Assembly: GCF_030412265.1 (NCBI RefSeq)
Contig: NZ_JAUHLN010000001.1
Span: 992,001-1,056,000, forward strand
Reading direction: 5' to 3'
DNA length: 64,000 nucleotides
From: Fictibacillus terranigra
GTDB taxonomy: Bacteria > Bacillota > Bacilli > Bacillales > Fictibacillaceae
Shown: piece by piece, positions 9,074-13,996 of the stretch
Layout of the letters: every line of letters begins with the position of its first letter
How positions within the stretch are numbered: position 1 is the stretch's first letter
Position numbers and translations under genes: made by a program
Notes under the pieces: model-generated
Databases searched by the model: none
What the model was told of the DNA's origin: nothing
Seen by the model: the letters and a program-made list of their open reading frames with translations, nothing else

Positions 9074-9249
9074 GTTCTTTAAAACGGACGAAATGTTCTT
9101 TGAAAATAACGAAAGATTAAGAAAAAAGGCGATTGAAGAAGTTAACAAGGACGTTTGTACGTTAAAAAGAACAAATTTAACCAATTTTGCAGGTTTTTCA
9201 AATAGTAAAATCGTTCTATACTGAACACGAGTTGTTCGTTAATAAGAAC
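9074..9249 (+). promoter_or_regulatory. Cluster of SinR-type operator boxes upstream of tapA
   Basis: GTTCTTT occurs at 9074-9080 and 9095-9101 (21 bases apart), its complement AAAGAAC at 9166-9172, GTTCTAT at 9213-9219 overlapping a TATACT -10 (9217-9222), and TAAGAAC at 9243-9249 facing GTTCGTT. SinR of B. subtilis recognises GTTCTYT. Five matches ahead of the matrix operon, in a genome segment that also encodes SinR, make SinR repression very likely. Motif from established knowledge; occupancy is inferred. Confidence 0.75.
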
Positions 9250-9315: not shown

Positions 9316-10134
9316 TTGAGAAAGTTCAGAAAGAAGCATTGGGTATATGTTTTAAGTTTACAAGCTGGCATTATATTTTATTCACTTATGTACTCCCTTT
9401 ACGGTCTGACCGGAACTACAAATGCCTACTTTAATGATACATCCAAAGTTAGCGGAACGATTATGGCAGGGACTTGGGAGACCGATGACGGGAAGTGGGA
9501 TAAAAGCTCACTGACCTTCCTATCGGCATCTAACGAAGCTTCATGCAGCAGTATTAGCGCTGTAATAGTAAACAAGGGTGAGAAGATGCAGGATCCTGTT
9601 AAATACGAAGTTTGGTGGGCTGAACAAGGATATCCGAAGGATGGCAGTAAAGTCGATACTGGAAAAATTGATGCGCTGACAAAGAACCAAAAAGAAACCC
9701 TTACATATTTGCCAACGAAAGATGGTGTTTATAAGTTTAAAGCATTCCAGAGACCAGGACATCCAGGTAAGGGAGAACTTTGGAGTGATGGAATTACAAT
9801 AACTGGGTGTAATCAACAAGATACAGATGAAGATAAAAGTAAGGATGGCAAAAAAGAAAATATAGTGAGCGAGAAAGAAAAGGAACAAAAACCAGCGTCT
9901 GGCGATTCAGGTAATGACAATACAGAGGAAAAACCGGCTGAAAAGCCTGCAGAAGTTAAGGATGAAACAAAAGAACCAGAGCCAGCACCAGATAGTAAAA
10001 CCAATGACGGTGAACAGGACAAAGAAGCTGTAAATAAAGACGCCGAAAAAGATGCCGAGCAAAATTCAATAGATCAAAAAATGACAGTTCCAGATTCAAA
10101 GAAGGGTGATAGTAATGAAGACAATCAAAGTTAA
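9316..10134 (+). CDS. tapA: TapA-like matrix fibre anchoring/assembly protein
   Basis: 272 residues from the TTG at 9316. Basic N-terminus, hydrophobic segment, then TTNAYFNDTS, a SipW-type processing region. The secreted domain has the TapA pattern (W..SSLTF, conserved Cys pair, GVYKFKAFQRPGHPG.GELWSDGITITGC), followed by a long acidic Glu/Lys/Pro/Asp tail, as in B. subtilis TapA. The TTG lacks a ribosome site at proper distance; AAGGAGGG is seven bases from an in-frame ATC at 9301, so translation may begin there (see findings). It overlaps sipW by 20 bases, implying coupling. Located first in tapA-sipW-tasA behind SinR boxes. Confidence 0.85.
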   Translation: MRKFRKKHWVYVLSLQAGIIFYSLMYSLYGLTGTTNAYFNDTSKVSGTIMAGTWETDDGKWDKSSLTFLSASNEASCSSISAVIVNKGEKMQDPVKYEVWWAEQGYPKDGSKVDTGKIDALTKNQKETLTYLPTKDGVYKFKAFQRPGHPGKGELWSDGITITGCNQQDTDEDKSKDGKKENIVSEKEKEQKPASGDSGNDNTEEKPAEKPAEVKDETKEPEPAPDSKTNDGEQDKEAVNKDAEKDAEQNSIDQKMTVPDSKKGDSNEDNQS

Positions 10135-10690
10135 AAAATGGCTTAGCAATATTGTTACAACTGTTTTATTTGCAACCTTGTTGTTTATGGCAGTTATAGT
10201 CATCTCGTCAAAAGCTTCAGGAGGAGATCCTAGTTTTCTCGGTTACCAGCTAAAAACAGTCCTATCCGGCTCCATGGAACCGCGAATCCACACAGGATCA
10301 ATCATTGCAGTTAAGCCTGGTGGTGACATGACCCGTTTTAAAAAGGGTGACGTCATAACCTTTAAGGCTTCTGAAAATAAATTGATTACCCACAGGATAA
10401 ACAAAGTGGAAGGCAGCGGATCAAATACCAGATACGTCACAAAGGGTGATAACAATGATGCCCCCGACCTGGAAACGGTACTTGCTAACAACGTAGTCGC
10501 AGAATACAAAGGGTTCACCGTTCCTTATGTGGGATACGGAATGGAGTTTGCACAATCCAAAAAAGGTACCACTTTATTGATGATCGTTCCCGGAATTCTC
10601 CTTCTTATCTACTCTGTGGTCACCATCTGGAAAGCCTTTCGGGAAATCGAAGTAACAAAAAAAGAAGAGACACCGCCAGTAAGCAATTAA
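10115..10690 (+). CDS. sipW: Signal peptidase I SipW (ER-type)
   Basis: 191-residue membrane signal peptidase dedicated to TasA/TapA-type precursors. Catalytic Ser lies in VLSGSMEPRI (about residue 51) and the general base is His in LITHRINKV rather than Lys, the mark of ER-type enzymes such as SipW. Hydrophobic segments lie at about 12-32 and 155-175. The ATG at 10115 follows AAGGGTG and lies inside the end of tapA. Neighbours encode both known substrates. Confidence 0.95.
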   Translation: MKTIKVKKWLSNIVTTVLFATLLFMAVIVISSKASGGDPSFLGYQLKTVLSGSMEPRIHTGSIIAVKPGGDMTRFKKGDVITFKASENKLITHRINKVEGSGSNTRYVTKGDNNDAPDLETVLANNVVAEYKGFTVPYVGYGMEFAQSKKGTTLLMIVPGILLLIYSVVTIWKAFREIEVTKKEETPPVSN

Positions 10691-10779
10691 CGGTTGCAAC
10701 TCTGCAGAGAAATCTCTTTGCAGGTTCAATATAAAACACTACATACCCATGGAAAATGGGGAAGGGGAGGAAGTTGAAC

Positions 10780-11376
10780 ATGAGTTTGAAAAAGAAATTA
10801 GGTTTAGGGGTAGCCTCAGCAGCATTAGGATTGTCTTTAGTAGGTGGAGGGACGTATGCATACTTTAGTGATTCAGCTAAAACAAATGGCACATTTGCAG
10901 CGGGAACATTGGATTTAAATGCTAATCCCACAACGATTATTAACGTAGATAAAATCAAACCTGGAGACACAATGCTTCGATCTTTCAAACTAGCGAATGC
11001 TGGAAATCTAGACATTGCGACTATTAACTTAGCTACAGATTATACAGTTAATGATGCTAAAGGTGACAATGCAGGAGAAGACTTTGGTAGCCATATCCGC
11101 GTTAACTTCTTGATAAATGCTGATAAGCTTGATGCCCCGATTTATTCAACTACACTTGCACAACTTAAAACATTGTCACCAGATGTAATAAAAGGCAACA
11201 TCTTTGGTGGCTGGTTAGCAGAAAGAGGCGGAAAACTTGCAGCTGGTACAGATGATACACTTTATGTACAATATGAGTTTGTTGAGAATGGTGCTGACCA
11301 AAACAAATTCCAAGGTGATTCTTTAACTCTTAATTGGACATTTGAAGGCAAGCAGGGTGCTGGCGTAGCAAAGTAA
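10780..11376 (+). CDS. tasA: TasA/camelysin-family matrix fibre protein
   Basis: 198 residues. SipW-type signal: LKKKLGLGVASAALGLSL followed by GGTYAYFSDSAKT with the YFSD processing site, then a camelysin/TasA domain (GTFAAGTLDL, IKPGDTMLRSFKLANAGNLDI, LTLNWTFEG). It is the main biofilm amyloid-like fibre protein in Bacillus; B. subtilis TasA is longer (261). GGGGAGG sits nine bases before the ATG at 10780, better than the upstream GTG/TTG options. Third gene of the operon, 89 bases after sipW, closed by a terminator. Confidence 0.92.
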   Translation: MSLKKKLGLGVASAALGLSLVGGGTYAYFSDSAKTNGTFAAGTLDLNANPTTIINVDKIKPGDTMLRSFKLANAGNLDIATINLATDYTVNDAKGDNAGEDFGSHIRVNFLINADKLDAPIYSTTLAQLKTLSPDVIKGNIFGGWLAERGGKLAAGTDDTLYVQYEFVENGADQNKFQGDSLTLNWTFEGKQGAGVAK

Positions 11377-11388
11377 TTTAAATTAAAA

Positions 11389-11418
11389 GGGAAGGTGGGG
11401 CATCCCACCTTTCTTTTA
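11389..11418 (+). terminator. Terminator of the tapA-sipW-tasA operon
   Basis: AAGGTGGG/CCCACCTT hairpin and TTCTTTT run, about 13 bases after the tasA stop. Confidence 0.8.
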
Positions 11419-11482
11419 TAGTATAGATGTTATGCGAGGAACAAAGTCAGACCTCCAATTTAAAAGCGAGGAGGTACAGATC

Positions 11483-12199
11483 ATGATATTTAACTCAAAT
11501 AAATTTAAAATTGTGTTTGTATATTCCATTTCACTGCTGCTTACCCTTATTGTTTTTTTTCCTTTTGGGAAAACAGATGCATCGAATACAACCTCAAAAA
11601 TAGATTTTGCAACCTCTCCAACCGAGTCTCTTTTTGATGTGAACAACATGAAACCCGGAGACTGGGCGACCAGAACATTAGTGGTAAAAAACAAAGGAAA
11701 TGTTCCTTTTACTTATAATACAAAATCCAATTACAAGAACGGTTCTAAAAAATTCTTTAATCAGCTTTTTCTTAAATTAAGTGATAAAAATGGAGTTGTT
11801 TATGAAGGAAAACTCAGCGGCTTCAAGAAACTACAACCGCGTAAACTACAACCACGAACAGAAGAACAACTAACAGCAACGATTTCATTTCCCTGGGAAT
11901 CCGGAAACGAATTTCAAGGATTGAAAACTGAATTTGAACTTGTACTATTGACATCAGACACTAATATCAATAACCCGCCAAGCAATCAAGATGACACCAC
12001 AACAGACAACAACACACCGCCGTCCAAACAAACTGATCCACCATCAAACAATACAACACCAGGCATTTCAACCTTGCCGAAAACCGGTGAAAGCAGTCCT
12101 TATCCTATCATGATTCTAGGCTTTTTCATCTTCTCATCAGGGTTAATTCTTCTGCTTGTGAAGAAGTCTGTAATCCCGAATCCTTTTAAAAGGGAGTAA
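11483..12199 (+). CDS. LPXTG-anchored TasA/camelysin-like protein
   Basis: 238 residues: N-terminal signal segment (about 7-33), a TasA/camelysin-like domain (KIDFATSPTESLFDVNNMKPGDWATRTLVVKNKGNVPF parallels the IKPGD..FKLANAGN stretch of TasA), an Asn/Pro/Thr-rich spacer (about 165-200), then the wall-sorting signal LPKTG at about 205, a hydrophobic span and a basic tail. So it is likely exported and covalently attached to peptidoglycan. GAGGAGG precedes the ATG at 11483. Only three bases separate it from the sortase gene, so the pair is an operon. Confidence 0.85.
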   Translation: MIFNSNKFKIVFVYSISLLLTLIVFFPFGKTDASNTTSKIDFATSPTESLFDVNNMKPGDWATRTLVVKNKGNVPFTYNTKSNYKNGSKKFFNQLFLKLSDKNGVVYEGKLSGFKKLQPRKLQPRTEEQLTATISFPWESGNEFQGLKTEFELVLLTSDTNINNPPSNQDDTTTDNNTPPSKQTDPPSNNTTPGISTLPKTGESSPYPIMILGFFIFSSGLILLLVKKSVIPNPFKRE

Positions 12200-12202
12200 G
12201 TT

Positions 12203-12826
12203 ATGAGGTGGCTAGCATATGTGCTGATCACTGCTGGAATCTTAACGATGTGTTATCCAAAGCTAAAGAGCTATTATTACACGAACCAGGAGAACCAATT
12301 ACTTAAGTCATGGAATCACCCGCCCAACGAACAAGCAAAGGACAACTACAAAAAGTTAAATCAAGTTTTCACTGAAACAGAAAAACCTGTGAACCCCTCC
12401 ATGAGAAGTCCACAGCCCAACCGTTTACTTGGAACACTGGAGATCAAAAGAATTCACCTCCGTTTACCGATTCTGGAAGGTGCCAGTCTGGCCAATTTGA
12501 AAATTGCCGCTGGACATATCTCCGGCACCTCTGCCATCGGTGAAAACGGAAATGCGGCCATTGCTGCCCATAGAAGCTATACGTATGGTAAACAGTTTAA
12601 TAGATTGACGGAAGTGAAAATGGGAGATTTCATCACCATTGCAACAAAAGAAAAAGCCCTCACGTATCGGATGTTCGCTAAAGATATCGTCAAACCGACT
12701 GATCTGTCTGTATTACATAGTAAAACAAACGAAAACATCATCACTTTAATTACCTGTCATCCCTTCAAAAACCCGACACACCGGTATATTGTGAAGGCTA
12801 AGTTAATAAAGATTGTTAACCAGTAA
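12203..12826 (+). CDS. Class D-type sortase
   Basis: 207-residue membrane-tethered transpeptidase. N-terminal anchor (about 3-20), then the sortase fold with catalytic His in AAHRSYTYG, Cys in TLITCHPF and Arg in THRYIV, in the order of sortases. The TLITC motif and short length suit class D/E-type enzymes. Translation starts at the ATG after AAGGGAG, which overlaps the end of the LPXTG gene, implying coupled expression; the neighbouring LPKTG protein is the obvious substrate (inference). Confidence 0.9.
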   Translation: MRWLAYVLITAGILTMCYPKLKSYYYTNQENQLLKSWNHPPNEQAKDNYKKLNQVFTETEKPVNPSMRSPQPNRLLGTLEIKRIHLRLPILEGASLANLKIAAGHISGTSAIGENGNAAIAAHRSYTYGKQFNRLTEVKMGDFITIATKEKALTYRMFAKDIVKPTDLSVLHSKTNENIITLITCHPFKNPTHRYIVKAKLIKIVNQ

Positions 12827-13154: not shown

Positions 13155-13188
13155 AAAACCGGAGTCCATCCAGACGCCGGTTTAACTT
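13154..13188. terminator. Bidirectional terminator between hypothetical gene and sinR
   Basis: AAACCGG (13156-13162) and CCGGTTT (13177-13183), with GTC/GAC extending the stem; overlaps the sinR stop codon. Confidence 0.75.
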
Positions 13189-13511
13189 TGGTTCTTATTT
13201 TTCCATTTGTTGAATTCAAGGAATTCTTTGAATTGGTCTTTGCTGACACCAGACTGCATAGCTTCCTTTACGAGCTCTGCCCATTCATAATCCAGCTCCG
13301 CCTCATTGACCTCAGCTTTTTCATTCAGCAATTTTTCAACAGGAATATCCAGGACGGCGGCCAGCTTTTCGAGCAGCTGTACAGAAGGATTGGTTTGTAT
13401 GTTTCGCTCAAGGGAGCTGAGGTAGGATTTGGCGATACCTGCTCGTTCTGCTAGTGCGGATAGAGATAGACCTTTTTCTTTTCGATATTTTTTCACAAGT
13501 TCACCAATCAT
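13182..13511 (-). CDS. sinR: Biofilm master repressor SinR
   Basis: 109 residues. N-terminal XRE-type HTH (IGELVKKYRKEKGLSLSALA, then AGIAKSYLSSLERNIQTNPS) followed by a linker and the C-terminal SinI-interaction hook (DYEWAELVKEAMQSGVSKDQFKEFLEFNKW). Length and layout equal B. subtilis SinR (111 aa). DNA-binding repressor of matrix genes, controlled by sequestration with SinI. A ribosome site AGAGGGATC precedes the ATG. It follows sinI with an 80-base gap and a hairpin in between. GTTCTTT-type boxes ahead of tapA are its presumed sites. Confidence 0.97.
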   Translation of the reverse strand: MIGELVKKYRKEKGLSLSALAERAGIAKSYLSSLERNIQTNPSVQLLEKLAAVLDIPVEKLLNEKAEVNEAELDYEWAELVKEAMQSGVSKDQFKEFLEFNKWKNKNQS

Positions 13512-13578
13512 GATGATCCCTCTTTTTTACTCCAAATTTGATTTCATTATACATTTATGGACTATAGGCTGTAAATAG

Positions 13579-13609
13579 AGCAAAAGCGACATCACCCTGA
13601 TGTCGCTTT
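13579..13609 (-). terminator. Hairpin terminator/attenuator between sinI and sinR
   Basis: Perfect 12-base stem AAAGCGACATCA/TGATGTCGCTTT with a 3-base loop, overlapping the sinI stop, followed on the minus strand by a short TTTTG run. It could end part of the sinI transcript, giving unequal SinI and SinR levels, or protect the sinI mRNA. Confidence 0.65.
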
Positions 13610-13747
13610 AACTAAAGGCATATTTTGTTGTATGTAGGATTCCTGCAGATACTTTCGTACTTCCTCCAGGCTTAATCCTAATTTTTTAGCTTGTAAAATC
13701 AAAACTACCCATTCTTGATCAAGATGTGTTTCGTTTAGGTTTTGCAT
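13592..13747 (-). CDS. sinI: SinR antagonist SinI
   Basis: 51 residues, MQNLNETHLDQEWVVLILQA followed by KKLGLSLEEVRKYLQES. The LDQEWV..I..AK...S.EE.RKYL pattern is the SinI dimerisation domain that binds SinR one-to-one and releases it from DNA (B. subtilis SinI is 57 aa). GGAGGG lies six to seven bases before the ATG. The leader carries a c-di-GMP-I aptamer whose 5' flank can pair with this GGAGGG, and a Spo0A-like box upstream. Precedes sinR in the same orientation. Confidence 0.95.
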   Translation of the reverse strand: MQNLNETHLDQEWVVLILQAKKLGLSLEEVRKYLQESYIQQNMPLVKATSG

Positions 13748-13776
13748 GTTTCCCTCCTGAAATTGGTGGTTTTCTA

Positions 13777-13872
13777 GGTAATCCAGCCGACATAGTTATT
13801 TCCCTTAGACCTGTGATTTTGCGTCCATGCTTTTCAGCCATGTTTGCCCTTTAACTGGAGGGTGGCGTTACC
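13777..13872 (-). promoter_or_regulatory. c-di-GMP-I (GEMM-I) riboswitch in the sinI leader
   Basis: On the minus strand the leader contains every conserved block of GEMM-I. AAAGGGCAAAC is followed by a hairpin with a GAAA tetraloop (CAUG-G-CU/AGCAUG), GGACGCAAA, then ACAGGUCUAAGG with a second arm ending CUAUGUCGGCUGG, matching the tetraloop-receptor CUAAG/UAUG pair. The closing stem is UCCAG/CUGGA. The G in GGGCAAAC fits c-di-GMP rather than cGAMP selectivity. The 3' end is 29 bases before the sinI ATG. CCCUCC, just 5' of and overlapping the closing stem, is exactly complementary to the sinI GGAGGG, so ligand binding would be expected to free the ribosome site (ON switch, inference). Confidence 0.9.
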
Positions 13873-13928
13873 GACAGGCAGTTGATGATACAAATTTAAC
13901 CAATTCATAGTGCTTAATTCACATTTTT

Positions 13929-13962
13929 ATTATAGGATGTTATTCTCTAGTAATATGTCGTA
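13929..13962 (-). promoter_or_regulatory. sinI promoter with Spo0A-like box over the -35
   Basis: Perfect TATAAT -10 at 13929-13934 (minus strand). No good -35 lies at the right distance; instead TACGACATA at 13954-13962 resembles the 0A box (TTCGACAAA, 7 of 9). A 0A box replacing the -35 is the arrangement of Spo0A-activated sigma-A promoters, including B. subtilis sinI. The start would fall about 50 bases upstream of the aptamer. Confidence 0.55.
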
Positions 13963-13996
13963 ATTTGCCTGTTATGTAATTGTAATATAACAGTAA

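Follow-up and report, generated by a model that had tools for sequence, protein, structure and literature searches.

The sinI gene of Fictibacillus terranigra is preceded by a c-di-GMP-I (GEMM-I) riboswitch that most likely controls sinI translation as an ON switch, as folding models over the leaders of many relatives predict. The gene lies on the minus strand of the 64,000-nucleotide stretch of DNA that was analysed as a whole (the window). The evidence for what the aptamer is and for its conservation is solid. The computations over relatives also establish a conserved position, a conserved closing helix P1 and a predicted masking of the Shine-Dalgarno sequence (SD) by the P1 strands.

The first-pass annotation had read GEMM-I landmarks in the sinI leader and suggested a search with Rfam RF01051. 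A string check of the minus strand finds these landmarks, namely AAAGGGCAAAC, a GAAA-loop hairpin, GGACGCAAA and CUAAGG...CUAUG. The covariance search returns a significant match over the full model with 61.5 bits (gathering score 35, E 1.3e-9), and the conserved core, P2 and P3 are all represented in the alignment. The aptamer is the sole hit at the gathering threshold within the window. Its 3' end lies 26 nt before the AUG of a short open reading frame (ORF) with the SinI domain PF08671, and 27 of the 31 family genomes with a SinI-domain match have the aptamer directly before that ORF, in keeping with the annotation's choice of sinI as the target. The elements concerned and their neighbours are as follows.

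13774-13858, minus strand: c-di-GMP-I riboswitch aptamer (RF01051, model positions 1-87)
13592-13747, minus strand: sinI, 51 aa (Pfam PF08671, 45.5 bits against a cut-off of 31.4)
13583-13609, minus strand: intrinsic-terminator-like hairpin overlapping the sinI stop (consensus match only)
13546-13575, minus strand: promoter-like site before sinR, TTTACA-18-TATAAT, 11 of 12 (consensus match only)
13182-13511, minus strand: sinR, 109 aa (HTH_3 and SinI-type C-terminal domains)
13885-13890, minus strand: candidate -10 element TATCAT, about 30 nt 5' of the aptamer (read from the sequence)
9074-9172, plus strand: three GTTCTTT matches (two on the plus and one on the minus strand) upstream of tapA (motif search)
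9316-10134, plus strand: tapA-like gene, first of the matrix cluster (TIGR04087, 127.7 bits, cut-off 80)
10106-10690, plus strand: sipW (NF046067, 281.6 bits, cut-off 190)
10756-11376, plus strand: gene for a matrix protein resembling TasA/camelysin (PF12389; score under the cut-off of the TasA equivalog NF046066)

The whole 4.97-Mb genome carries two c-di-GMP-I aptamers. The second (L001, G000:C9:862937-863024) lies upstream of a GGDEF gene whose open frame spans 182 aa here and 369 aa in two other genomes (G004 and G005). This riboswitch-controlled cyclase may be broken in the strain, or the assembly may be in error. A 40-aa ORF (13719-13841, minus strand) starts within the sinI aptamer and extends across the sinI start in a different frame; it is probably a chance occurrence.

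The ORF behind the aptamer encodes the SinI anti-repressor, judging by its short length, its place beside sinR and its Pfam domain above the cut-off; the match to the NCBIfam equivalog NF046031 lies below the cut-off (32.4 of 80). The SinR protein shares 98% identity with its counterpart in Fictibacillus sp. FJAT-27399. Given the terminator-like hairpin at its stop, sinI may be transcribed largely separately from sinR. Upstream of sinI, a promoter scan gave no site on the sinI strand. The candidate -10 element was read by eye, and TATAAT occurs at a similar distance upstream of the aptamer in two further leaders (L044 and L055). Transcription of sinI in Bacillus subtilis is governed by Spo0A. 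The window holds CAAATTACGACATA at 13954-13967 on the minus strand, upstream of sinI, and the same string recurs identically in L065, L066 and L068 and nearly so in L067, which are Fictibacillus sinI upstream regions without the riboswitch. It contains what we take to be a reverse Spo0A-box-like core; if so, the transcriptional and translational inputs to sinI would be separate.

The matrix cluster (9316-12826) adjoins sinR on the opposite strand and is extended beyond the tapA-sipW-tasA-like genes by genes for an LPXTG protein and a sortase. The three copies of GTTCTTT, presumably the SinR-box consensus, fall within 99 bp before tapA; the degenerate form GTTCTYT occurs 31 times in the whole window against 23 expected by chance.

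The annotation had also proposed to look for the element before sinI in related genomes, and there it is common. Within a family set of 34 genomes, 30 carry RF01051 and 31 carry PF08671. The aptamer lies directly upstream of the SinI ORF in 27, which is every family genome with both matches (the two lists were intersected by eye). Named SinR loci give a similar picture: among the best 56 of 70 (L069-L124), an aptamer precedes a SinI-like ORF in 37, on the sinR strand in 34 and on the opposite strand beyond sinR in three. The ORF was found by script or in translation for 33 of the 34 same-strand loci, and its start in L118 was set by hand from resemblance. Fictibacillus accounts for 17 of the 56 loci, 13 of them with the aptamer; these 17 overlap the family set. 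Among the other 39, the aptamer occurs in 24, in Salibacterium, Alteribacillus, Siminovitchia, Heyndrickxia, Thalassobacillus, Lentibacillus, Salsuginibacillus, Evansella and Gottfriedia, among others. The ORF 3' of the Gottfriedia aptamer encodes a divergent SinI-like protein.

Order-wide, 38 of 61 genomes drawn have a SinI-domain match, and the aptamer precedes a SinI-domain ORF in at least 23 of these: 13 among the matches listed, the source genome and G009 from the family search, and eight from a targeted scan. Nine have no aptamer in the scanned stretch, some of them with further SinI-like ORFs beyond it, and six fall outside the scan; the order-wide listing used stricter filters. The SinI match of G055 is below the Pfam cut-off. 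The SinI ORF and its aptamer lie away from sinR in some genomes, for example G035. In the genome of B. subtilis, used as a control, the same covariance search gave no RF01051 match.

Several genomes show variations on the arrangement. One (G032) has a second sinI-like gene (L063, G032:C1:531700-532448) with its own c-di-GMP-I aptamer and a CUGGAAUAC/GUAUUUUAG pair that is absent from the main sinI leader of that genome. Another (G052) has two sinI-like genes, each with an aptamer (L143 and L144). The sinI aptamers of Gottfriedia and relatives (L110-L119) contain a long insertion and give matches of 123-140 nt; their best model is RF03167 (c-di-GMP-I-GGC) for nine of the ten and RF01051 for L115.

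The proposed switch depends on the closing helix P1 and on its overlap with a sequence complementary to the ribosome site.

13855-13859, minus strand: P1 5' strand, UCCAG (register conserved across leaders)
13773-13777, minus strand: P1 3' strand, CUAGA (C.A mismatch at pair 3)
13857-13862, minus strand: predicted anti-Shine-Dalgarno CCCUCC, overlapping the P1 5' strand (complementarity, folding, mask scan)
13752-13757, minus strand: sinI Shine-Dalgarno GGAGGG, four bases 5' of the AUG (13747)

The annotation had closed the aptamer by pairing UCCAG with the CUGGA at 13786-13782. This stem is ruled out by the Rfam alignment, in which CUGGA sits in the 3' strand of P3 and CUGGAUU (13786-13780) pairs with AAUC-A-CAG. 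In the collected leaders, the first base of the conserved closing helix is the second C in the final ACC/GCC. P1 in the window is UCCAG/CUAGA, with four of five pairs and one C.A mismatch, whereas UCCAG/CUGGA, a perfect helix, occurs in L038 and L039, its two nearest relatives. The leader of Fictibacillus sp. FJAT-27399 has a perfect P1. Other forms among the leaders include UUCAG/CUGAA, UUCGG/CUGAA, UCUAG/CUAGA and UUUUG/CAAGA. Over 55 of the 68 leaders (13 near-duplicates left out, and the poor or odd P1 of L115, L139, L144 and L160 kept in), standard pairs fill 85% of the P1 cells in best-fit registers, compared with 20-53% when the strands are slid by one to three positions. With one fixed, unfitted register, applied to 54 leaders, the share is 77% at the canonical spacing, and six other spacings give 23-45%. 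The core anchor is one base off in L140 and misplaced in L160.

The folding model sets the cost of closing P1 in the window at 6.8 kcal/mol, which ligand binding or co-transcriptional folding must pay. The C.A mismatch raises the question of whether the window copy is decaying, such that one P1 pair is lost to the base difference at 13775, leaving a weak or constitutively OFF element, while the switch of its relatives works. The perfect P1 of L038 and L039 speaks for this, as do a score towards the lower end of the range of family matches above the cut-off (60.6 to 86.4 bits) and the shortened GGDEF frame behind the other aptamer of the genome. Against it, the core is intact, the score is well over the gathering threshold, four GGDEF matches are still present in the genome (the short one counted), and the extra cost of closing P1, relative to L038 and L039, is only 0.8-1.5 kcal/mol, with four pairs forced in the window and five in the relatives. 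We consider decay unlikely and a functional translational switch the better reading of the window copy.

CCCUCC pairs with GGAGGG in the unconstrained minimum-energy fold of the leader. The stability of that fold is no better than that of shuffles (z 0.65), and single-sequence fold stability was set aside as uninformative. For the pairing of the P1 5' region with the SD region the predicted duplex energy is -12.9 kcal/mol; when the 5' region is shuffled base by base, 2.8% of 500 sequences reach this value. Over 34 leaders, 184 of 5000 permutations reach the mean of the own anti-SD pairs when partners are swapped, a modest advantage.

Mask scans, in which pairing is forbidden in successive 8-base stretches and the effect on SD opening is scored, point to P1. 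The SD of the window opens best when the P1 5' strand is blocked, which lowers the cost from about 6.0 to 3.2 kcal/mol. In a scan of 18 leaders the best stretch is the P1 5' strand in the window and nine others, and the P1 3' strand in four. Extended to 55 leaders, the scan assigns 18 to design A (masking by the P1 5' strand), 21 to design B (masking by the P1 3' strand) and 16 to neither, with class calls that vary with flank length: L046 has a 5'-strand effect in the 18-leader scan and none in the 55-leader scan. Design A includes nine Fictibacillus leaders, the window among them, two from Salibacterium, and leaders from Lentibacillus and Thalassobacillus. In the commonest form of design B, CUGAAAUAC in the P1 3' strand pairs with GUAUUUUAG, which extends into the SD; this motif pair occurs in 16 of 68 leaders. 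Heyndrickxia provides an example of a design B leader. These platform scans leave out the 13 near-duplicates, L151 (the same as L094), L171 (contig as long as that of L116) and L157 (core pattern not found).

The association between the P1 strands and the SD exceeds chance across the set. A P1 strand masks the SD by either design in 39 of 54 leaders (L160 additionally left out), as opposed to 8-21, with a mean of 14, in 24 dinucleotide-shuffle replicates; the remaining 15 show neither design. For the window taken singly, the modelled masking does not go beyond chance: the SD is held at least as tightly in 10 of 60 upstream shuffles and in 7 of 24 of a second set, and the 5'-strand effect is equalled in 2 of 24. 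The switch drawn around CCCUCC in the first-pass annotation stands in part, since comparative and masking tests and the models support an anti-SD that overlaps P1 and an ON logic, and not the stem with which it was drawn.

Two further models were put aside. A bound-state model on a shortened 3' segment, in which 33 of 40 leaders gained more than 0.5 kcal/mol in opening, favours opening unduly, since less sequence is left to pair, and it was replaced by the mask scans and shuffles. A fold of the window with the whole aptamer forced (-17.3 kcal/mol, compared with -29.6) puts too much constraint on isolated pairs and contains no tertiary energy, and was not used; it also ranks the OFF fold as the more stable one in the model.

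A terminator scan found no terminator-like site between the aptamer and sinI. Attenuation is rejected on this ground, and control is likely translational. P1 closure frees the SD in both designs, so both predict that c-di-GMP turns SinI translation ON. The aptamer could instead bind c-di-GMP and turn SinI OFF, or affect the stability or length of the transcript and not ribosome access. Bacillus c-di-GMP riboswitches of both signs are indeed tabulated, mcpA as 'off' and cbpA as 'on' in B. thuringiensis (table in PMC7793685). The lack of a terminator-like site before sinI and the modelled SD release on P1 closure in both designs argue against such an arrangement, which we regard as improbable.

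A translational ON switch would operate as follows. Without ligand, CCCUCC, which overlaps the pyrimidine-rich P1 5' strand and includes the bases just 5' of it, would pair with GGAGGG, and little SinI would be made. Binding of c-di-GMP would stabilise the aptamer and P1, which would capture UCC of CCCUCC and leave the SD free. SinI could then antagonise SinR, and the adjoining tapA-sipW-tasA-like cluster would be derepressed. We infer ligand binding in the cell, the direction of switching and the effect on SinR targets and matrix genes from the leader and its relatives.

The window aptamer has G at position 20 (13848) and C at position 92 (13778), which we take to be, in numbering and role, the bases that contact c-di-GMP. 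Sensing of another cyclic dinucleotide such as cGAMP is very improbable: variants of the class with A at position 20 bind or prefer cGAMP, but the window has G at this position, G is read there for 66 of 68 leaders, A occurs in L109 only (L160 has a misplaced anchor and its sequence is GGC), and the genome encodes GGDEF domains. The leader with A at position 20 is the sinI aptamer of Lentibacillus populi.

The source genome has four GGDEF matches, counted as domain presence and including one in a short frame, and from these domains the organism should be able to make c-di-GMP. The sinI aptamer is present in three genomes of the genus, which have four to seven GGDEF matches, and absent in four. 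Three of these (G001, G002 and G006) have neither a GGDEF nor an RF01051 match, and the fourth (G003) has two GGDEF matches and has lost the sinI aptamer. A permissive Rfam scan of the four aptamer-free leaders, up to E 10, listed no aptamer. The G003 leader aligns with three intact leaders at scores of 107, 107 and 123, compared with best scores of 80, 74 and 74 among 200 shuffles; GGACGC and the complementary ends are kept and the core is changed. On its sequence, the G003 leader is a degenerate relic of the aptamer. Of the 61 genomes drawn order-wide, three have no GGDEF match (E 1e-20), and these are also without RF01051; it is present in 52 of the 58 others.

A c-di-GMP riboswitch at sinI is not wholly new. 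The annotation knew of none described at this gene, and this needs correcting, as '(c-di-GMP)-sinI' is already listed in Table 4 of a 2015 study of Bacillus methanolicus MGA3 (PMC4342826). That element also lies in the sinI 5' UTR and was found by comparing RNA-seq 5' UTRs with Rfam; it is listed as putative, and the available part of the paper gives no expression platform, comparative analysis or test. A c-di-GMP-I riboswitch has also been proposed computationally at a SinR-like gene of Paenibacillus sp. FSL P4 (PMC9943018); unlike the sinI leader element of the window, it is antisense to the regulator gene, and sinI is unmentioned in the part of that source available. The B. thuringiensis elements are likewise Bacillus c-di-GMP riboswitches, at the collagen-adhesion gene cbpA and the chemotaxis gene mcpA and not at sinI (PMC7793685, PMC7423583, as far as their available parts go). 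The first of these sources cites unpublished microarray data in which sinI goes up on CdgF overexpression, and names no sinI riboswitch in its available part. Order-wide conservation, the platform designs and the loss of the aptamer with GGDEF genes were not found described in the literature searched, as far as its available parts go, nor was a functional study of a c-di-GMP riboswitch at sinI, with subscription journals mostly beyond the coverage. The window element belongs to the known c-di-GMP-I class (RF01051), and what makes it interesting is its target gene together with its expression platform. B. subtilis sinI encodes the same protein with the same partner and differs in that its genome, the control here, has no RF01051 match.

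On balance, the sinI riboswitch is probably old and widespread in Bacillales and absent in B. subtilis, with a platform rebuilt at least once under the same logic and a tendency to disappear with the diguanylate cyclases. The two designs would exemplify expression-platform turnover at constant logic in nature. SinI/SinR is the textbook biofilm decision point of B. subtilis, and we know of no action of c-di-GMP on it in that species. If the proposed switch is true, the second messenger directly feeds the SinI/SinR matrix switch: c-di-GMP would set the dose of SinI at translation in much of Bacillales, atop the promoter inputs, and a c-di-GMP route to the matrix genes of Gram-positive spore formers would become testable with a single leader RNA.
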